From Bacillota bacterium (GTDB lineage: Bacteria; Bacillota; Clostridia; Ch29), in assembly GCA_013540605.1 (NCBI GenBank), contig JABVCK010000005.1, positions 1-64,000 of the forward strand: a DNA stretch of 64,000 bases, in the 5' to 3' direction. Position numbers and translations under genes: made by a program. Each line of letters opens with the position of its first letter. Positions within the stretch are counted from its first letter, which is position 1. Below, piece by piece: positions 8,722 through 58,952 of the stretch. Below the pieces are notes generated by a model. It did not search any database and had not been told where the DNA came from. It saw only the letters and a program-made list of their open reading frames with translations.

Positions 8722-8753
8722 GAAAAAACCGCCAAATCTTGAGATTGGGCGGC
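8722..8753 (-). terminator. Intrinsic terminator after grdB
   Basis: On the minus strand CCGCC-C-AATCT and AGATT-T-GGCGG form a strong stem with a two-base loop, followed directly by TTTTTT (8728-8723). It lies 60 bases past the grdB stop and ends the grdE-grdB transcript. Confidence 0.85.
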
Positions 8754-8814
8754 TTTTGCCTACAAGCTGAGACACCCTTTTGGGTGATCCTTTTCTATGC
8801 TCAAAACCGGGGTT

Positions 8815-10101
8815 TCACTGTTCCATCATTCGGAGCGCCTCAAGCACCAGATCCCGGCGGTAATTGTACTCGATATCCGGCGGCAAAGTGGGGTCGCCTA
8901 GCGGATGCAGCACACTGTTGCCAGGCAAAATGCGGTTTGAACCGATGCCGGACGCCACATTAGTCAAATTGCAGACCTGCACAATGGGAATGCCGGAGCG
9001 TTCAATTTCTTTGGTCATCACTGCGCCGCAGCGGGTGCTGGTGCCTCAGGTAGAGGTTAGTATAACGGCATCCACCTGATCTTCACGCAGCAGAGCGGCA
9101 ATCTCCTGGCCAAATTTCTTGCAGTTTTCCATGGAGGTCATCACCCCGGCGGTGGTGTAGAAGCGGTCCGCCAGCTTGCCGATCAGCCCTTCCTTTTCCA
9201 GCCTCCGCAGCACGTCCACAGGCACCAGGCGGTTGGGGTTTTCCAGCACAAAGGCATTGTTATAGCCCTGATGCCGCACCTCATAATCCTCTGCGGCCAG
9301 ACTGTCCTTGCCCGTGATGGAATAAACACCGAATTTTTGGGAATTAACGGGCACCATTTGGTCTGGGTTGCCTTTGGGAACCAGGCCGCCGTCACTCACA
9401 AGAGCAACTTTTGCTTTCTTAAGCGGTTTTGTCAATTGGGAAGGCGGTATCAGTTCATGTTGGGGCATGGGCACCTCCGTATTGAAGGGGCGGCCATAAA
9501 ATTTATCCAGTGCCATATTGACCGCCCGCTTGGCCCCGGACACGCTGTAATCCACGGACCTCACCGGCCCAGTGCCCAAATAACCCTCCTCGCTGCCGTA
9601 ACCGATGGGTTCGCTGTCAACCAACTTGAGCGCAAATCTGACGATTTTACTGATATCCTCCCCCATGCGGCGGGCGCTGTTATGGATGCCTATGATATAA
9701 GCCAAGCCGCTATAAAGGTCCACACCGGGATTTTCCGCGTAAAGACCGGTCACGCTGGGAATTTTGAGCTGCTTATAAACAGCCGCGGTCACCGCGCCAC
9801 AAGCTAGCCCGTAACGCCCGGCATTGAAACCCGGCCCTGCGATGAAAAGGTCCGGCTCCGCTTCATTAACCAGTACCACCACCTGCGGCACCACGATTTC
9901 CAGGTTCTCCGCAATATGATTATCGCCGCAGATAACCGTGCGCACCACCTCACCTCGCTCCCCCAAGAGTTGATTGAGCAACTGACCTGGGCCAACCGCT
10001 TCTTCCCGCACGCTGATCCCCACATCTGCCGCCTCTTCGCCGCCGATCTGGGCATAGAACTGATTAATATAATGCACCACCCGCAGCTTCTTCTCTACCA
10101 C
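8815..10101 (-). CDS. grdB: GrdB-like selenoprotein: reductase component B, substrate-specific beta subunit (UGA = selenocysteine)
   Basis: 428 residues if the in-frame UGA at 9046-9048 (codon 352) is read as selenocysteine. Both halves match GrdB/GrdF/GrdH of glycine, sarcosine and betaine reductase: VVHYINQFYAQIGGEEAADV and CGDNHIAEN at the N terminus, and TSTUGTSTRCGAVMTKEIE around the active site. In this family component B binds the amine substrate and passes a carboxymethyl group to the selenol of GrdA. Here the motif is U-x-x-S-x-x-C, whereas I recall U-x-x-C-x-x-C for GrdB. The GTG start has GAAGGAGG eight bases upstream and lies 3 bases after grdE. Base composition is GC-rich compared with birA (33 of 60 G+C in row 9481, against 25 of 60 in row 7561). 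The substrate is unknown. No grdA, grdC or grdD is in the window. Confidence 0.88.
9019..9048 (-). promoter_or_regulatory. UGA selenocysteine codon and bacterial SECIS-like hairpin
   Basis: The UGA at 9048-9046 is followed on the mRNA by CGCTGC-GGC-GCAGTG (9033-9019), a six-pair stem (one G-U) with loop GGC. The loop begins 18 bases after UGA and has G in its first two positions, matching the general bacterial SECIS rule as I know it. Reading continues in frame for 76 codons with clear GrdB similarity. Confidence 0.75.
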
Positions 10102-10104
10102 GGT

Positions 10105-11373
10105 TCAGCCCTCCTTCCGTATTAATTCCGTATCCGTGGTTGGATAAAAATCCCCCAACTCGCTCAAATTTCCGGCCAACAGCAGATTGGTGGACTTGGT
10201 GAAAGGCCCCTGGAGATCCACCCCCAGCAAGGAAGGAATTTCTGAATCCCCGATCAGACGAGCCACCCTGGGAAAGGTAATGGTTTCCACATAAGCGCTG
10301 TGGACCACGGCATCCAGATGGGGATTGACCACGGCCAAAAGATCGCCGGGCTTTTCGCTGGAGACCGTGGGCATGATAGCCACAGCCGCAATCCCCAACT
10401 CCGCGCATTTTTCACAGATCATGGCCTGCTCCAATTGCAGATGGTGCATGCCGCATTTATTGGTGATAACAATATCTGCTTGGAGGTGGTTTTTGGCCAG
10501 GTCCACGGCCACCATGGTACAGACATCCTTATTTTTGGTCACGGTCTGGCCATTATTGAGCACCACACCGGCAAAATCCAAATCCAGCCCATGGCGGCTG
10601 TATAACTCATAGATCACAGTATCATTCTGAATATAATAAGTGAAATAAAAGTAGCGGTAGATGAAAGCACCGTCCAGCAAATCATTGGGATGCACCAAAA
10701 GGGGCAGTATGCCTTGGCCGCTGATTCCGTAATAGAAGAATTGCATGGTATCAAAAGCGGCCAGGTGGTTAGTGATATAAGCCACCCGCGGCAAACGGCT
10801 GCCATCCGCCGCAGGAGGGACTGGCGTCAGCTCGTAAATCTTGCTTTCGCTGGGCACGGTTTCAATTGCCAACCGGGCCAAACAGACACAGGCGGTCAGC
10901 GCAGCTTGTTTGAGTGCCTTACAGTAGGCCACATCGTCAATCCCCGCCACGGGACTGGCGTTGATCACCACATGATAATGACGGGAAAAGTGGCTGACCT
11001 CCGCCGCCGGCCCGGACATATCCAGAATATACTTCAAATTGGCCTTCAAGGGGTAAAGCTCCGTCACCACCACCCCGCGCAGAGCCACGGTGCGCCCCTC
11101 GCCCGCCGGCTTGACATTCCCCCAGATGCCGGGGAAAGAAGCCTCCGGCTCATCCGCCTTGACTCGCGGCTGGGTGATATCATGCACTCCCAGGAGGCGT
11201 ACATCCTCGCCAGGGGCCACCAGCTCAATTTGCAGGGAAGAAAACATGTCGCTTTGCATCTTATCCAGCAGCTCTTGTTTATCGATATACAGTGCTCCAT
11301 TTTCCAGATAACTCTTTTCCGCAAATGCCACACTTTTGATCTCCACAAAATCTATCTGTAACCTTTTGCCCAT
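10105..11373 (-). CDS. grdE: GrdE-like proprotein: reductase component B, alpha/gamma subunits
   Basis: 422 residues from an ATG preceded by AAGGAGGGTGGGG. It is similar to GrdE/GrdG/GrdI proproteins: the C-terminal domain has a VVLNNG...AVDLAKNHLQADIVI segment and VETITFPRVARLIGD. In known GrdE a cysteine near residue 242 is cleaved to give a pyruvoyl group. Here the corresponding stretch (about 234-250) reads DGAFIYRYFYFTYYIQND and has no cysteine. Other Cys residues (285, 307) lie outside that site. This points to a divergent or differently processed subunit. The DNA is strikingly GC-rich (42 of 60 in row 11041), suggesting recent transfer. It overlaps nothing and is followed 3 bases later by grdB. 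Confidence 0.82.
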   Translation of the reverse strand: MGKRLQIDFVEIKSVAFAEKSYLENGALYIDKQELLDKMQSDMFSSLQIELVAPGEDVRLLGVHDITQPRVKADEPEASFPGIWGNVKPAGEGRTVALRGVVVTELYPLKANLKYILDMSGPAAEVSHFSRHYHVVINASPVAGIDDVAYCKALKQAALTACVCLARLAIETVPSESKIYELTPVPPAADGSRLPRVAYITNHLAAFDTMQFFYYGISGQGILPLLVHPNDLLDGAFIYRYFYFTYYIQNDTVIYELYSRHGLDLDFAGVVLNNGQTVTKNKDVCTMVAVDLAKNHLQADIVITNKCGMHHLQLEQAMICEKCAELGIAAVAIMPTVSSEKPGDLLAVVNPHLDAVVHSAYVETITFPRVARLIGDSEIPSLLGVDLQGPFTKSTNLLLAGNLSELGDFYPTTDTELIRKEG

Positions 11374-11638
11374 AACCCCACCCTCCTTATGTTGAAAACA
11401 AATATACACTCCGCTTGTTCATTTAGATTATTAATACATTATGAATCAAGGCAACGGCAGCATCTACCGTCATCACATTATCTAACAGTGTTTGACAAGA
11501 CAACGAATTCTTTCCTGATAGTTCATTGTAACATGCCACCATATTCCGTGTGTATCAAATTTATAAAGAACTATATTAAAATTGTTGCGCTATTGCAACT
11601 AATTACAAATAGCTGTTGCAATAGCGCAACACATTCTA
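11374..11638 (-). other. Spacer between symporter and grdE
   Basis: A 265-base AT-rich leader region with the large inverted repeat at 11584-11630 and no gene. I looked for a -24/-12 promoter for grdE on the minus strand and found none with correct spacing. TTGTCT with GATAAT 15 bases downstream (about 11480-11505) is only a weak sigmaA candidate. grdE may be read from its own weak promoter or by read-through from the symporter gene. Confidence 0.4.
11584..11630. promoter_or_regulatory. Paired TTGC-N6-GCAA palindromes (activator sites or stem-loop)
   Basis: GTTGCGCTATTGCAAC (11584-11599) and its exact reverse complement GTTGCAATAGCGCAAC (11615-11630) are separated by 15 bases. Each is itself a TTGC-N6-GCAA dyad and their centres are 31 bp apart, about three helical turns, as expected for tandem sites of a sigma54 activator. 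They lie about 210-257 bp upstream of the grdE start. Folded as RNA they would form a 16-bp stem after the symporter stop, but only a short T-run (AATTTT) follows. The same dyad occurs before the activator gene at 16370. Confidence 0.6.
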
Positions 11639-13099
11639 TTAGTTAGGTACCTCGAACTTCTTGCCGAATTTTTCTTCATATCCTGGCGTGAGGAAAAATG
11701 GTGCTCTTTTATCAAGCAAAGTTAAAAGAAATACGATAGAACAGGTAATCAAGTGCAGGTAAAGCACATGCGGTAAAACAGTCGAGAACCAAGGCACCAG
11801 AAACCAAACCGTAGATGTTACGCAACTACAGCCGATTAACGCCGCGCCAGTACTCTTTCTAGCCAGCTTGGGGAAATACCATGAGATGATAAGCACGAAG
11901 AAATAACCGACGCTAAGTGCCAAACCAACCGTTACAATGGTCAAAATCGTGCGCTGATACATGGCAAAATAGAATACCAGTAAAGAACAGATTACGATGG
12001 TGATTCTTGAAGCAAAGACCTCTTTTTTAGGACTCATATTCATTTTGAATACTGGTTTCAGGATGTCATTTAAAATCAATGTAGAGTTGGAAACGATCAT
12101 CGTAGAGGCGGTTGAAATGATCGCTGCCCACATGCCCGCCAATACCAAACCAGTTATCAGGCCGGAGAACGATGTAGCCACTTTGGGCAGCGCGGTAGCT
12201 GTTTCCTCCAGACCTGGGAACATAACCGCAGCGACCATACCGATAATAGCGGTGCAGATGGCAATCGGCAAAAGTAGCGCGCCGCCGATCAAATAACCGT
12301 TGCGGGCGGTTTTGGTATCCTTGGCGGATAAAATCATTTGAATGGCCGACTGGGATGTCGGAATATTTACAACAAATAGTAATAGGTAGGCAATAATACC
12401 ACCTATGCCGTAATTACCTATGGGGCTGAAGTAGTGCGCCGGCAGTGTATCGGTTAAAACAGACCAGCCGCCAATATGACTGACAGACATTACGGCGCAA
12501 GCAATTACAGAAACATAGATAATACCGATATTGATCAGATTGGTAATACCTGCGCTCATCATACCGCCTGCTAGGCAAATGATAGTAAAGATAATCATCG
12601 AAACAAAGATACCACTGGTAAAACTAAAGTACTCAGGTAACAGCGTGCTGAGAATAGAACCACCGCCAACAAATTGCGCAACCATCAGTGTGAAATTCAT
12701 AAACAACTGGCCGACCGAAGCAATGATCCGTGTTCCCTCACCATAATAATCACCGTAAATTTGAGAAATGGTCATTATACCGGATGAACGGAATTTTTTT
12801 GCAAACACAGTACCGGTAAAAGCCAGGCCTAACACAAATGCGTATCCATACCAACCGCCGGAAAAGCCAAGATTATACGACCGTTGCGCAATACCCGTCG
12901 TGGTATTCGCACCGATTGCAAATCCGATAGTCGTCACCGATACCAACAAAGTACCGAAGCTACGGCCAGCCAGCAAATACCCGCTGGCGCCACCCTCATT
13001 CGATTTCTTTTCCTGATATCTTCTGGCATAGAAGGACGCAATGACCAAAGCTATGCAGAAGATAACAATAACTAACAATGCTATAACATTATCACTCAT
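11639..13099 (-). CDS. Sodium:solute symporter (SSS family)
   Basis: Integral membrane Na+-coupled importer with about 13 hydrophobic segments over 486 residues, the normal size for the SSS (2.A.21) family. The ATG chosen has GAAGGGAG upstream; an earlier codon eight residues before lacks this. Family-like segments are GYLLAGRSFGTLLVSVTTIGF (first helices) and MWAAIISTASTMIVSNSTLI in the middle. The gene has a near-perfect sigma54 promoter about 80 bases upstream and lies between the grdEB pair and the divergent amidohydrolase. It probably brings in the substrate of that pathway; the substrate is not deducible. Confidence 0.88.
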   Translation of the reverse strand: MSDNVIALLVIVIFCIALVIASFYARRYQEKKSNEGGASGYLLAGRSFGTLLVSVTTIGFAIGANTTTGIAQRSYNLGFSGGWYGYAFVLGLAFTGTVFAKKFRSSGIMTISQIYGDYYGEGTRIIASVGQLFMNFTLMVAQFVGGGSILSTLLPEYFSFTSGIFVSMIIFTIICLAGGMMSAGITNLINIGIIYVSVIACAVMSVSHIGGWSVLTDTLPAHYFSPIGNYGIGGIIAYLLLFVVNIPTSQSAIQMILSAKDTKTARNGYLIGGALLLPIAICTAIIGMVAAVMFPGLEETATALPKVATSFSGLITGLVLAGMWAAIISTASTMIVSNSTLILNDILKPVFKMNMSPKKEVFASRITIVICSLLVFYFAMYQRTILTIVTVGLALSVGYFFVLIISWYFPKLARKSTGAALIGCSCVTSTVWFLVPWFSTVLPHVLYLHLITCSIVFLLTLLDKRAPFFLTPGYEEKFGKKFEVPN

Positions 13100-13189
13100 A
13101 CTTAATCTCCCTTCTTCATTCAATTTAGTCGCTTTTGAGACACACTTAACTTATTGTGTTGTTGCTCCCCAATTCCCACGATTATTATA

Positions 13190-13205
13190 AGCAAGAATTG
13201 CGCCA
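13190..13205 (-). promoter_or_regulatory. sigma54 (-24/-12) promoter of the symporter gene
   Basis: The minus strand reads TGGCGCAATTCTTGCT: TGGC and TTGC elements with exactly the required GG-to-GC spacing. The start point would be near 13179, about 80 bases before the symporter ATG at 13099. Confidence 0.8.
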
Positions 13206-13280
13206 GAATTTCAAGAACAGTTATTTTAGCTTTATTAACTACATAATTTTACATTGTTAGGATGTTTTTATATCAATACA

Positions 13281-13296
13281 TGGCATAAAAATTGCT
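13281..13296 (+). promoter_or_regulatory. sigma54 (-24/-12) promoter facing the amidohydrolase
   Basis: TGGCATAAAAATTGCT has TGGCA and TTGCT with the canonical spacing. Transcription would start near 13307 and reach the amidohydrolase ATG after about 297 bases of leader containing two hairpins. It is divergent from, and 75 bp away from, the symporter promoter, so one activator could serve both. Confidence 0.75.
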
Positions 13297-13376
13297 AAGT
13301 AAATAAACAAGATGCTTTTAATTATTCGGTAAGCATTAGCATCTTTTCCCCAATTCCCGCATTCCGCAAAATACTG

Positions 13377-13399
13377 TACACATGCAAAAAACATGTGTA
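13377..13399. repeat. Inverted repeat in the amidohydrolase leader
   Basis: TACACATG and CATGTGTA are perfect 8-bp arms around a 7-base A-rich loop. It lies about 75 bases downstream of the plus-strand sigma54 start. It could be a protein-binding site or an RNA hairpin; no T-tract follows, so it is not a terminator. Confidence 0.45.
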
Positions 13400-13603
13400 A
13401 TCATAAGGAGGGATGTTAAACCATATTTGCCATAAGTCACATTTTGTTATTTAGTTATTAGTAGTTTGCATATTAGTTCTACAATGTTAAATTTCCAGTA
13501 ACCTTACATCACCAATACAATAGACCTTGAGCCTAAGTAAAATATATATCAAGGGGGCAATAATTGTGAACCAAAATATAATGTTGAAAGGAGTACTACA
13601 ATA

Positions 13604-14698
13604 ATGATAAAACATGATATTTTCACCGTTGCTGCTATTCAAAATGAGATTATCTGTGTCCAAGAACGTTCGGATATACAAAAGAACCTTAAGCGCCTTT
13701 TGGAATTGATTGACTGTGTGCCGCAAACCCAGGTTGCTGCCCGCGAACACTATGAGGGAAGTTGGGCTCCTGTTAAATTGATCTCCACGCCCGAATTTGT
13801 AATCCAGGGTCACGAAGGATCGTGGCCATATAGGCACTATATCGATAATGTACTAATTGAGATCCCGGGACCGGAAATTGACCAGATCGCCCAAAAATGC
13901 AAAGAGTACGGTATATACTTCGCCGGTTGTGCGTTGGAACGTGACGAGTGGATCAAGGACGGCTATTTCTGGAATACCCATTTCATAATCGATCCCAACG
14001 GTAAAATCATTCACAAATATCGTAAGATGACCGTTGCTATCCATTATGAGTTAGCAATCAGCCCACATGATGTGAAAGACAAATATGCAGAGGCCATGGG
14101 CGGCGACAAGCTCTCCACATGGTTCCCGGTAGCGGATACGGAAATCGGCAAGATAGGTACCATAACTTGCATGGACGGACACTTCCCCGAGACCGCCAGA
14201 GCGCTGGGCATTCAAGGTGCGGAAATCATACTGCACCCACTCCTCACCGTCCCTAACATGAGCAAACCTGCTGATATCTGGCAGTGCATGAACCGCATGC
14301 GTGCTTGGGAAAACGTATGTTATGTAATTGGCGCTTCCTGGGGTGAAATCCATGCCAAACGACAAAAGACTTTCGCACCGGGTCAATCGATGATTGTAGA
14401 CTACAACGGTATTGTAATCGCGCAGGCAGATTATGCCGGCGAGGCCATTATCACCGCAACCGTCAACTTGGAAGAACTGCGCAGACGCCGAATGGATCCC
14501 TCCAGAAACTTCCCCACCCAGTTGCGTACTGACATCTACCGCCAAATATATGATAAGGAAATTTACGCACCGAACATGTTTGCGGAGCATTCTCCAGAAC
14601 AACGCAGTGAGCGTGACTCTCTTGCAGGCGTCAAACAATTCATTAATGAAGGTATTTATCGGCTGCCGGAAAAGAAACCGGATTGGTATAAGGGATAA
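13604..14698 (+). CDS. Nitrilase-superfamily amidohydrolase
   Basis: 364 residues with the Glu-Lys-Cys catalytic arrangement of carbon-nitrogen hydrolases: TPEFVIQG (Glu), IIHKYRKM (Lys) and TITCMDGHFPE (Cys). It resembles the larger aliphatic-amidase-like branch more than the short omega-amidase type, but substrate class cannot be fixed. GAAAGGAG precedes the ATG by about 10 bases. It is the only plus-strand gene of the island and is divergent from the symporter, with its own sigma54 promoter, so it probably releases ammonia from an imported amide, ureide or nitrile, perhaps giving the amine acid used by GrdEB. That pathway link is inference. Confidence 0.85.
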   Translation: MIKHDIFTVAAIQNEIICVQERSDIQKNLKRLLELIDCVPQTQVAAREHYEGSWAPVKLISTPEFVIQGHEGSWPYRHYIDNVLIEIPGPEIDQIAQKCKEYGIYFAGCALERDEWIKDGYFWNTHFIIDPNGKIIHKYRKMTVAIHYELAISPHDVKDKYAEAMGGDKLSTWFPVADTEIGKIGTITCMDGHFPETARALGIQGAEIILHPLLTVPNMSKPADIWQCMNRMRAWENVCYVIGASWGEIHAKRQKTFAPGQSMIVDYNGIVIAQADYAGEAIITATVNLEELRRRRMDPSRNFPTQLRTDIYRQIYDKEIYAPNMFAEHSPEQRSERDSLAGVKQFINEGIYRLPEKKPDWYKG

Positions 14699-14727
14699 TC
14701 CCATCATTCTGATAAAGAAGAGAGCTC

Positions 14728-14763
14728 AAACAGCGGCAAGGGAAAACCTTTGCCGCTGTTTTA
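14728..14763 (+). terminator. Intrinsic terminator after the amidohydrolase
   Basis: ACAGCGGCAAGG and CCTTTGCCGCTGT pair around an AAAA loop and are followed by TTTTAT. It lies 30 bases after the amidohydrolase stop and may also serve the convergent activator gene, since the stem is preceded by A residues. Confidence 0.85.
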
Positions 14764-14810
14764 TACATTCACTCGATTAAGCATAGAATTGTCAGTGTGA
14801 GGCGTTGCGC

Positions 14811-16310
14811 TTATTTATTTTCTACCGTAATACCATATTGCTTTACTTTTCGGGATATTGTGGATGGATTAACCTTAAGCATGGCAGCCGCTTTGCGAAT
14901 GCTGCTCGTGTTTTTGATCGCTGACTCAATCAAAAATTTTTCGTAAGCGTTCATGGCAGCCTGCAACCCTTCGTTATCGCTCATCTGTTCCACATCCAGA
15001 TCCGCTTGATTTATACCCAAAAAGGTATATAAATCACTGCCAGATAAAAATGGGTTCTCGGAACAAATAACCATGTACTCAATGGCATTCTCCAATTCCC
15101 GTATATTGCCCGGCCAATCGTAGCTAAGCAGTGCGTGCAGAAAACTGGCGGACATATGCATCTCTCGTTTATGTTTCTCACAGAACTTATCAAAAAAGAT
15201 AGCAGCCAATTTGGGTATATCGCCTTTTCTTTTTCTTAGCGGCGGCACATGGATCGGCACCACATTAAGGCGATAGTATAGGTCTTCCCTGAAAGTGCCT
15301 TGAGAGATTCGCTCCTGTAACGGTGCGTTGGTAGCAGCAATCACCCGTACATCCAGCTGTATGGTCTTGGTGTCGCCAATGCGCAACACCTCTTTGTTTT
15401 GCAGTACCCGCAATAATTTTGTTTGTGTTTCATAGCTGATATCACCAATTTCATCCAGTAATATGGTACCGCCATTGGCCAACTCAAATAGACCCGCCTT
15501 ACCTTTGGGATTGGCGCCTGTAAAAGCCCCGCCTTTATACCCAAACAGCTCCGACTCCAGCAGATTCGCCGGTATGGAGGCGCAATTCACCTTTATATAG
15601 GGTTTGCCTACACGCCTGCTATTGTGATAGATATCGTCTGCAATAACCTCTTTTCCTACTCCTGATTCCCCACATATTAATATAGTGGCATCTGTTTTAG
15701 CAGCATTTTTGACTACCTTATAGACTTCCGCCATTTCTTTAGTAGTGCTGGTGTAAAGGGTATTGGCTCCGATGGTCTTATTATCATTGATAACGATGCT
15801 GGCGCCATATCTCCCTTCATCAGTAAAGCTTTGGTAAAAACGGCGCATCAATGGAGGGTTGTACATATTAATAATAATATGCTTGATCTTTCCGTTCTCC
15901 CAAATGGGATAAGCGACAATATAAAAATATGAAACCTGGCCGTCTTCCTGCCGGACATAGCCAGAACGGCTTATTTTTGAATGCAGCTTCAGTTGCGCCC
16001 TCCCATCCGGAACCTTTTCCTGAGAAAGCTGTTCCAGCATCATCTCATAAAATGTGCGGCCGTAGAAATTCGGTGTGCCAATTTGACTTTTAATAAAACT
16101 GGGATCGTAAAAATTGAAAATGCCATCTTTAGCCAGTTGATAGATTGAGCGTCCAAGCAACTGAGAATGTGGTATGCCAGTAATCTCGGAATATGCTTCA
16201 TTGATATATACTATCTGTCCATCCGCATCCAAAATACAGATGCCTGTATTCAGGTTTTCTAGAACCGCCATATAATCCACATCTTGACAGGTAGTTTTAA
16301 TCTCAGGCAT
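14811..16310 (-). CDS. PAS-containing sigma54-dependent transcriptional activator of the island
   Basis: 499 residues from an ATG with AAGGAG ten bases upstream. An N-terminal PAS sensor (about 15-130, [24 protein letters not shown]) is followed by an AAA+ domain with Walker A GESGVGKE, the sigma54-contacting GAFTGA loop (in [14 protein letters not shown]), Walker [12 protein letters not shown] and the R-finger region [15 protein letters not shown] Fis-type helix-turn-helix lies at the C terminus ([24 protein letters not shown]). It should drive the two sigma54 promoters at 13190 and 13281 when its PAS domain senses a ligand. A TTGC-N6-GCAA dyad lies upstream of its own gene. Confidence 0.93.
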
Positions 16311-16517
16311 GACAACTATTCTCCTTCTGTATACAATGATGCTATATAACAACGAAATTCAATGCTTTATTGCCAACCTGCAACACCACTTTATCTATAA
16401 TATACTGAAAATAATATGATTAATCAAGTCTTTTCCCGTGGCAAAGGTCGGGTAAAAGACGAAACCATGCTAATCTTTGCGTGCATGAATCTAAAGAAGA
16501 TGTTAAATTGTAAATAT
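16311..16517 (-). other. Leader of the sigma54 activator gene
   Basis: About 200 bases between the activator start and the tandem terminators of mmdB. It is AT-rich with no gene. The only element recognised is the TTGC-N6-GCAA dyad at 16370-16383. No strong promoter was identified by eye. Confidence 0.4.
16370..16383. promoter_or_regulatory. TTGC-N6-GCAA dyad upstream of the activator gene
   Basis: TTGCCAACCTGCAA repeats the half-sites and the six-base spacing found twice at 11584-11630. Its position 60 bases before the activator start suggests autoregulation. Only three copies were found by eye, all within the island. Confidence 0.5.
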
Positions 16518-16585: not shown

Positions 16586-16618
16586 TTAAAAACGGGCGAT
16601 GTACCACCATCACCCGTT
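16586..16618 (-). terminator. Terminator of the methylmalonyl-CoA decarboxylase operon
   Basis: ACGGGTGATG and CATCGCCCGT (minus strand) form a 10-bp stem with one G-U pair, followed by TTTTTAATA. It starts 8 bases after the mmdB stop. Confidence 0.85.
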
Positions 16619-16625
16619 CGTGCTA

Positions 16626-17822
16626 TCAACCGAAAATCGAAAGCAGCACCCCTGCTGCAACAGCAGAGCCTATTACCCCTGCAACGTTTGGGCCCATGGC
16701 ATGCATCAAAAGGAAGTTGCCCGGGTTCTCCTTCTGGCCTACTACCTGGGATACCCTGGCTGCCATGGGTACGGCCGATACCCCCGCTGAGCCTATCAGG
16801 GGATTTACTTTGCCGCCTGATAGTTTGTACATTATCTTGCCCAGTATCACGCCTCCTGCTGTACCCATACCGAAGGCCAGTACACCTAACACTATTATCT
16901 GTATTGTCTGTATCTGCAGGAATTTCTCGGCTGTTGCGCTTGCGCCTACGCTGACCCCCAGGAATATGGTTATTATGTTTATGAGTTCGTTGGCTGCTGT
17001 CTTGGAGAGCCGCTCTACTACACCGGATTCTTTGAACAGGTTGCCCAGCATAAGCATCCCGACAAGGGCGGCTGCTGATGGAAGGACTAAGGATACGGCT
17101 ATTGTTACTACTATGGGGAATAGTACTTTTTCGGTCTTGGATACATGCCGCAGCTGTTCCATCTTTACCATTCTTTCTTTCTTGGTGGTTAACGCCTTCA
17201 TAATGGGAGGCTGTATTATGGGCACTAATGCCATGTAGGAATATGCGGCTACTGCTACAGGGCCTAAAAGATGCGGCGCCAGCTTGGACGTTAGGTATAT
17301 GGCCGTAGGACCGTCTGCTCCGCCAATTATGCCTATGGATGAAGCCTCGGGCCCGGTGAAGCCTAATAGTACGGCGCCGATGAAGGTGGTGAATATTCCC
17401 AACTGGGCGGCTGCTCCGAGCAGCAGGCTCTTGGGATTGGCTATGAGGGGACCAAAGTCGGTCATAGCTCCTATTCCCATGAATATTATGGGCGGAAATA
17501 TGCCGAGCCTGTTGCCCTGGTAAAAGTACTGCAGGAGGCCGCCGGGCTGTATTTCGGAATGTTCGGTTATGACCATTATCTGCTTTCCGGCTTCCTGTAC
17601 GAGTTCTATGGGCTGACGTGTCACCTGGTCAGCCATAAGATTGGCCAGGGGAAGGTTTGAAAGAAGCATGCCAAAGGCGATCGGTACAAGAAGCAGGGGT
17701 TCGTATTTTTTTACTATGGCAAGATACAACAGTATACAGGATATGAATAGCATGATGAGGTGGGGTATATCCATACCTACAAAGCCGGTAGCCTGTATAA
17801 AGCTTTTCAGAATATCTATCAT
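16626..17822 (-). CDS. mmdB: Na+-translocating methylmalonyl-CoA decarboxylase, beta subunit
   Basis: 398 residues, a very hydrophobic integral membrane protein of the OadB/MmdB/GcdB family. It decarboxylates the carboxybiotin carried by the gamma/biotin subunit and couples this to Na+ export. Family segments include [35 protein letters not shown] (the ion-path region with the GGADGP motif) and [15 protein letters not shown]. It is the last gene of the operon, after the biotin carrier. Which acyl-CoA is used rests on the neighbouring mutase and epimerase. Confidence 0.94.
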
Positions 17823-32721: not shown

Positions 32722-32946
32722 AAAAATATCCCCTTCCCACATAATTTTTGTACAGGAAGCATTGATAATGTTAGAATATTCGCCTATAAAACAAAACAGA
32801 GTCCCCTTGCCCTGAAAATATGCAAGTGAACTCCTTTGCACAGCGGCAGGCATTAAAATTGCTTTTAATCCCCTATCGTCCCATAAAGCCCGGTAGGTTC
32901 TATAGGATCGGAGTATACAATCTGTAACAAAATATAATTGCCGCTA

Positions 32947-58828: not shown

Positions 58829-58952
58829 CTTAGTTCCAGCATATGCCTGTCTCGGTCCCCGCAGGGCTCAGAGCAGATTTATCCACTTCTCGATATTCCC
58901 ATGGGTGCGGCTCCTGAGGATACCGCCCTAAAAAATATTTTATCAAACTTGA

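Follow-up and report, generated by a model that had tools for sequence, protein, structure and literature searches.

The window analysed here comprises the 64,000 nucleotides at the start of contig JABVCK010000005.1 (assembly GCA_013540605.1), from a Bacillota bacterium of the class Clostridia. Between a biotin-ligase gene and the propionate (Na+-decarboxylase) operon, it carries an island of five contiguous genes, two of which encode relatives of the fluoroacetate reductase FarEB and of the component B proteins GrdE and GrdB. The minus strand encodes a FarB/GrdB-like selenoprotein B of 428 amino acids (aa) with selenocysteine (Sec) at residue 352 (8815-10101; PF07355, 454 bits), a FarE/GrdE-like subunit of 422 aa counted from its ATG (10105-11373; PF09338, 237 bits), an SSS-family sodium:solute symporter (11639-13123; PF00474, 90 bits), and an activator with PAS, sigma-54 AAA, and helix-turn-helix domains (14811-16352; assigned with Pfam and carrying GAFTGA). 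The fifth gene, on the plus strand and divergent from the symporter gene, encodes a nitrilase-superfamily amidase of 364 aa (CN_hydrolase, 13604-14698; PF00795, 152 bits). As read from the sequence, the GrdE-type frame spans 10105-11409 with its likely start at ATG 11373, preceded by AAGGAGG, and the likely starts of the symporter and the regulator are ATG 13099 and ATG 16310, respectively. All five contiguous genes described in a first-pass annotation of this DNA were found in place, each with Pfam support.

The proposed left boundary, a terminator of the grdB-like gene, was supported by folding of a 61-nt stretch, in which a terminator-like hairpin lies 3' of this gene (about 8724-8757, minus strand; minimum free energy -19.9 kcal/mol, z -3.4, with none of 200 shuffled sequences equally stable). 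On the right, two terminators had been attributed to the propionate operon. The one at 16590-16619 (minus strand) was strong (z -5.1, 0 of 200 shuffles), whereas the candidate at 16643-16658 falls within the OAD-beta gene (16626-17822), so that a single credible terminator is left on this side.

The gene of the FarB-like subunit contains an in-frame TGA (9046-9048, minus strand), read as Sec352, after which the frame continues to the stop codon at 8815-8817; the 76 residues beyond the TGA align with FarB-type proteins. Together with the in-frame UGA, the protein passed the cut-off of the selenoprotein B subfamily model TIGR01918 (475.7 bits, cut-off 65.45). It scored under the cut-offs of glycine reductase selenoprotein B (TIGR01917; 452 bits, cut-off 602), sarcosine GrdF (488 bits, cut-off 800), and betaine GrdH (422 bits, cut-off 775). 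The motif around Sec352 is STUGTSTRC, in which serine replaces the first cysteine of UxxCxxC and the second cysteine is retained.

The GrdE-type subunit matched the NCBIfam model of the fluoroacetate reductase subunit FarE (NF053623) over its full length with 489.5 bits, and the next-best family was sarcosine GrdG (186 bits, cut-off 780). The cysteine from which the pyruvoyl group is formed, Cys242, is absent: YRYFYF, starting at residue 239, replaces SGNCVSACDK. In GrdG of Peptoclostridium acidaminophilum the cysteine of the GNC motif is residue 242, and for Clostridioides difficile GrdE the available part of the report gives the captured pyruvoyl peptide as 242-266 (PMC9908766). GNC is present in 60 of the 70 rows of the GrdE alignment, and the ten rows without it are the window, the three Far-type rows introduced below, two of betaine type (L083 and L081), and L013, L074, L075, and L076. 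A six-column gap at the Cys242 site is common to the window and the Far-type rows. The third position after Sec in GrdB was serine in 6 of 16 complete rows, and the GrdE partners of all six are without GNC; among the ten UGTC rows, the partner has GNC in seven and not in three. The loss of the pyruvoyl cysteine, which the window subunit shares with FarE, lowers the likelihood of amine cleavage and favours a leaving group other than an amine, perhaps a halide. The AlphaFold models were weak (pLDDT 63.7 for the GrdB-like and 36 for the GrdE-like protein) and were not used; Foldseek with the GrdB-like model gave no match at E<=0.001. Among solved structures searched by sequence, GrdB had a single match (E 0.78), taken as chance, and GrdE had none at E<=1.

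The FarE model was run over partly overlapping genome sets. At E<=0.001, matches were found in 113 of 398 genomes of the phylum set and in 38 of 291 of the class set, of which none and one, respectively, exceeded the cut-off; in the organism's own family all six genomes had a match and none exceeded it. Among the phylum and class matches listed, the window reached 489 bits and the over-cut-off genome 838, and all others stayed at or below 251. In the family of the latter genome, 2 of 206 genomes were over the cut-off, both in one genus. A scan of genome contigs with the window GrdE as a single sequence gave no relative, and neither did a scan of viral contigs, whereas a two-row alignment recovered three relatives among 71 matching stretches of genome contigs. 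These Far-type relatives belong to Clostridium UMB00080 (L077), Olsenella RUG001 (L078), and Clostridiaceae BL-3 (L079), and their FarE proteins score 838 (scored as L044, taken as the same gene), 790, and 850 bits, all over the cut-off.

The GrdE tree was built from 85 matches, of which 15 duplicate loci were dropped, leaving the 70 rows. In this tree, the window and the three Far-type rows were grouped with 100/100 support. The branch of the window was flagged as long (1.32), and those of L013, L074, L075, and L076 were longer; unusual letter composition was flagged in L077, L078, L079, and L083, not in the window. For the GrdB tree, 41 matches were reduced to 26 by removal of 15 duplicate loci and then to 16 rows by removal of 10 incomplete ones, including L077. 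Here the window joined L078 and L079, again with 100/100 support, and no long branch was flagged. The window GrdB is 63.6% and 57.7% identical to L079 and L078, respectively, and at most 49.3% to the 13 other rows. The two trees agree on the Far-type placement, and neither puts the window with the rows labelled as glycine-type, sarcosine, or betaine. Consequently, the earlier proposal of a component B of different specificity stands, and neither GrdB nor GrdE falls inside a known glycine, sarcosine, or betaine clade. The likeness to FarE was assessed with the NCBIfam model and with the Clostridiaceae and Olsenella rows.

According to the available part of the report by Leong et al. (PMC10838667), the farACEB operon of Cloacibacillus porcorum MFA1 encodes the fluoroacetate reductase FarEB, in which FarE is without the cysteines and FarB without the CxxC motif. 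The same account describes induction of farACEB by fluoroacetate and lower degradation accompanying loss of farC or farA. The window resembles this system in its FarE-like subunit, which aligns over the full length and has no pyruvoyl cysteine, in the selenoprotein FarB-like partner, and in that the operon itself is without GrdA, GrdC, and GrdD. It differs in that an SSS symporter and a nitrilase-type amidase stand where farACEB has the MFS antiporter FarA and the radical-SAM protein FarC. It also differs in that the second cysteine after Sec is kept (UGTSTRC); in L079 the first is likewise gone and the second kept (UGTSSRC), and L078 is without both.

The component B systems of known type are more distant. 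The sarcosine pair GrdG/GrdF of P. acidaminophilum is likewise a component B pair accompanied by a nearby sigma-54 regulator gene, but GrdG has Cys242, GrdF has UGTCTRC, and the window proteins score far under both cut-offs. The betaine pair GrdI/GrdH shares the absence of the pyruvoyl cysteine, but it forms a separate clade, keeps UGTCTRC, and in the annotated locus L083 has a BCCT transporter beside grdH. The organism's own pair on contig C9, whose glycine type is inferred from its grdA/C/D-trx neighbours, is also a two-gene component B with a TSTUG Sec motif. The window proteins are 31.8% (GrdE, 380 columns) and 48.1% (GrdB) identical to it; the C9 GrdE has the GNC cysteine and the window GrdE does not, and the window is without grdA/C/D or trx genes.

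The first-pass annotation had noted that no GrdA, GrdC, GrdD, or thioredoxin genes accompany the island and had placed GrdA/C/D elsewhere in the genome. Both statements were borne out. No trxB, trxA, grdA, grdC, or grdD was found in the 64-kb window by tblastn with the C9 proteins (E<=1e-5), and one such set lies on contig C9, where the only GrdA over its cut-off in the genome, with an in-frame TGA, has GrdC, GrdD, TrxA, and TrxB nearby, all over their cut-offs. One further GrdA match, below the cut-off, is on C24. A tRNA-Sec was detected with 70.7 bits (gathering score 47), and the lower-scoring matches are probably other tRNAs. The genome contains four GrdB-type and four GrdE-type genes. One pair (L013:7814-10460, contig C21) is divergent and pyruvoyl-less, with the longest branch of the GrdE tree; by eye, its neighbours are an APC-type transporter, a PRD-type sigma-54 regulator, an aldehyde-ferredoxin-oxidoreductase-like gene, and TRAP genes. 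Another (L012:9033-11656, contig C11) retains Cys242 and UGTC, and its GrdB exceeds the glycine GrdB cut-off (644 bits, cut-off 602), with GrdE at 582 bits against 780 for GrdG.

The neighbourhood comparison of Far-type genes covers three loci, two of them apparently from one genus. In L079 the order is trxB, trxA, grdA (with Sec), grdC, grdD, farE, farB, and an amidohydrolase-like gene, with a PocR-AraC regulator upstream; the support for calling it an amidohydrolase is modest (Pfam 25.3 vs 25, NCBIfam 309 vs 371). L077 contains an L079-like regulator, farE, farB, and a similar amidohydrolase-like gene. Its farB frame (11336-12652) is interrupted near 11752-11768, which could be a draft-assembly error, the L079 relative being intact. 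In L078, a lactate permease and three Abhydrolase_3 (alpha/beta hydrolase) proteins are encoded upstream of farE-farB. Accordingly, a hydrolase lies near farEB in all Far-type loci, from unrelated families and with the nitrilase-type amidase only in the window, a recurrence consistent with a carboxylate being released from a conjugate. None of the other genomes searched yielded the five-gene set, the three Far-type loci having different neighbours, so that the co-occurrence looked for elsewhere was not observed.

Two other loci pair a pyruvoyl-less GrdE with a UGTS-type GrdB. In L074 (349-10704, G360:C59), the genes next to the pair include those of a dihydropyrimidinase and a carbamate kinase, each exceeding its cut-off, together with PreA-like, glycerate 2-kinase-like, and carbamoyltransferase-like genes that do not reach theirs; this reductase is possibly tied to pyrimidine or hydantoin breakdown. 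In L075 (9244-17479, G035:C4) the pair is followed by CoA-transferase-like genes, grdA, grdC, and grdD, of which grdC is over its cut-off and the others were assigned by eye (one CoA-transferase-like gene had no NCBIfam match at 1e-20).

The amidase aligned with formamidase and N-carbamoyl hydrolases, with conserved Glu, Lys, and Cys columns, which we take to be the catalytic residues. It stayed under every named NCBIfam cut-off (best, formamidase, 98 bits vs 406), and of 391 class genomes only its own had it at E<=1e-50. Plasmid relatives (the best 25 of 897) were about 30-35% identical, the top ones in Arthrobacter and haloarchaea, and the neighbourhoods of four of these showed no consistent partner. 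A haloacid dehalogenase is encoded at a distance of about 3 kb from one plasmid relative; it was not counted as evidence.

The symporter was likewise under every named transporter cut-off, and at E<=1e-60 relatives occurred in 8 of 391 class genomes, including its own. The loci of seven such relatives were read. A GlcD-like oxidase is encoded in L113 and a dehydrogenase of the malate/lactate/sulfolactate type in L118, each scoring under the NCBIfam cut-offs; by eye, L114 has an oxidase and Etf-like genes and L112, similarly, Etf-like genes. No oxidase, dehydrogenase, or Etf-like neighbours were present in L115, L116, and L117. These neighbours weakly hint at carboxylate transport. One plasmid relative of the symporter is adjoined by a sigma-54 regulator and an aminotransferase.

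The dyad TGTTGC-N6-GCAACA is present upstream of the FarE-like gene at 11583-11600 (one mismatch) and at 11614-11631, the sole exact copy found in the genome. Further one-mismatch copies lie directly upstream of the regulator gene (16368-16385) and within its coding region (15371-15388), where the match may be due to chance. With at most one mismatch, five sites were found in 3.35 Mb, four in the island and one on C11; as the pattern was drawn from the sites at 11583 and 11614, independent support comes from those at 16368 and 15371. This clustering supports the earlier suggestion of a dedicated sigma-54 activator. In the divergent region between symporter and amidase, a pattern scan detected two sigma-54 -24/-12-like sites with one mismatch, facing the symporter (13190-13205, minus strand) and the amidase (13281-13296, plus strand), as well as a perfect palindrome, TACACATG-N7-CATGTGTA (13377-13399). 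These are two of the three one-mismatch sites in the window; for this region 0.019 was expected, and none of 1000 simulated regions had two. Over the whole window, the three one-mismatch sites are near the simulated mean (2.5 over 15 runs), and the 35 sites with up to two mismatches correspond to chance (31 expected). Elsewhere in the window, the contig starts within a 16S rRNA gene (1-396), a usual assembly break, and the minus strand carries a Moco/tungsten riboswitch and a pan motif (32815-32925 and 58843-58929).

In the general GrdA/C/D scheme, a carboxymethyl-selenoether on GrdA is converted to acetyl phosphate via GrdC and GrdD, and TrxB and TrxA re-reduce the system. We propose, with a probability of roughly 0.58, that the island encodes a FarEB-type, substrate-specific component B whose substrate is a 2-substituted acetate bearing a leaving group other than an amine, and that the symporter, the amidase, and the regulator belong to the same pathway. 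The symporter would import the 2-substituted acetate or its amide, and the amidase would hydrolyse the amide to the carboxylate. The CH2-X carbon would then be attacked by Sec352 of the FarB-like subunit, with expulsion of the non-amine group X, the foremost candidate being a halide such as fluoride. The resulting carboxymethyl-selenoether would go to GrdA made from contig C9, GrdC and GrdD would release acetyl phosphate, and TrxB and TrxA would restore the reduced state. The PAS-AAA activator would control grdEB and its own gene via the TGTTGC-N6-GCAACA dyads.

Several observations weigh against this proposal. The FarE-like subunit, at 489 bits, is under the equivalog cut-off of 675 bits and for that reason was not filed as FarE; it is 46-47% identical to the over-cut-off FarE rows. 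By Pfam, no homologue of the radical-SAM farC or the MFS farA is among the five genes. As far as the available part of the FarEB report goes, the link of FarEB to fluoroacetate consists of transcript induction and comparative genomics, and its authors themselves suggest an amine-containing compound as the preferred substrate (PMC10838667). Two CrcB fluoride-exporter genes are on contig C25, not near the island, and 10 of 14 control genomes also have CrcB. Folding did not demonstrate a SECIS hairpin, the post-UGA sequence being no more stable than shuffled ones (z +0.9, 165/200). The symporter scored higher with PutP (52 bits) than with the monocarboxylate permease MctP (23 bits). No trx or grdA/C/D genes were found in the locus DNA examined for L077 and L078. 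In L079 (6083-8569), compared with the C9 proteins, grdC is without residues 229-455 (about 227 in the middle) and trxB without about 109 N-terminal residues; this may reflect decay, another start, or misassembly, so that the neighbouring set itself may be partly decayed or misassembled. As for regulation, a reversed control pattern gave four genome sites versus five for the dyad; the total therefore does not exceed chance, and what stands out is the clustering alone. The symporter/amidase intergenic region is devoid of dyads with fewer than four mismatches, and a search ahead of grdEB and the regulator gene, allowing three mismatches, gave no sigma-54 site, so these results do not demonstrate joint control. 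Finally, betaine GrdI is also without the pyruvoyl cysteine, and its loss alone is therefore compatible with an onium substrate.

A narrower form of the proposal is an amide-to-acetate pathway in which the product of the amidase is passed to a selenoprotein B that has no pyruvoyl group and cleaves C-X rather than C-N, with a substrate other than fluoroacetate, for example another haloacetate or 2-substituted acetate; it is put forward tentatively, as somewhat doubtful. The five genes might also be neighbours by chance, with a FarEB-like reductase beside a separate symporter-amidase pair for amide assimilation and a regulator that controls only part of them. The position of the dyads at grdEB and the regulator, not at the symporter/amidase region with its own sigma-54-like sites and palindrome, is consistent with this explanation, as is the failure to find the same five genes elsewhere. 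It nevertheless appears unlikely, because the genes are bounded on both sides by other genes with terminator-like hairpins, and because the three other Far-type loci also have a hydrolase and one of them a carboxylate permease.

The first-pass annotation had an imported amide, ureide, or nitrile hydrolysed and the amine product cleaved reductively; in this view, the amidase would release an amine or amino acid, and GrdEB would break its C-N bond by reduction. The TIGR01918 score of GrdB (475.7 bits), the resemblance of the amidase to formamidase and N-carbamoyl amino acid hydrolases, the order of PutP over MctP (both far under their cut-offs), and the amine-containing substrate suggested by the FarEB authors (PMC10838667) would be in keeping with this idea. 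The claim was weakened by the absence of the pyruvoyl cysteine and by the kinship with FarE/FarB-type proteins, the nearest named family, FarE, having a non-amine named substrate; we regard it as quite improbable. A betaine-like onium reductase, for which the pyruvoyl group is dispensable because of a charged leaving group (trimethylamine, dimethylsulfide, or similar), would agree with the lack of Cys242 in betaine GrdI (L083) and its close relative L081, but is very unlikely, since GrdI/GrdH rows stand apart from the window in both trees, the GrdH score is 422 against a cut-off of 775, GrdH keeps UGTC where the window has UGTS, and the annotated betaine locus L083 adjoins a BCCT rather than an SSS transporter.

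The literature listed for fluoroacetamide and amidase, or for glycine reductase and haloacetate, chloroacetate, or selenocysteine, contained nothing on this enzyme type. For the very stable C-F bond, FarEB is a proposed means of anaerobic cleavage, and the literature found on it, as far as available, treats Synergistota. The island adds a divergent, separately regulated FarEB relative, located beside an amidase in a genome with the GrdA/C/D-Trx machinery. FarEB-type reduction of a 2-substituted acetate in this organism would provide a second system for direct comparison of substrate range, pyruvoyl requirement, and the contribution of the residues that follow Sec. If the C-X substrate is other than fluoroacetate, the island would extend selenium-dependent reductive dehalogenation in Clostridia by another branch.

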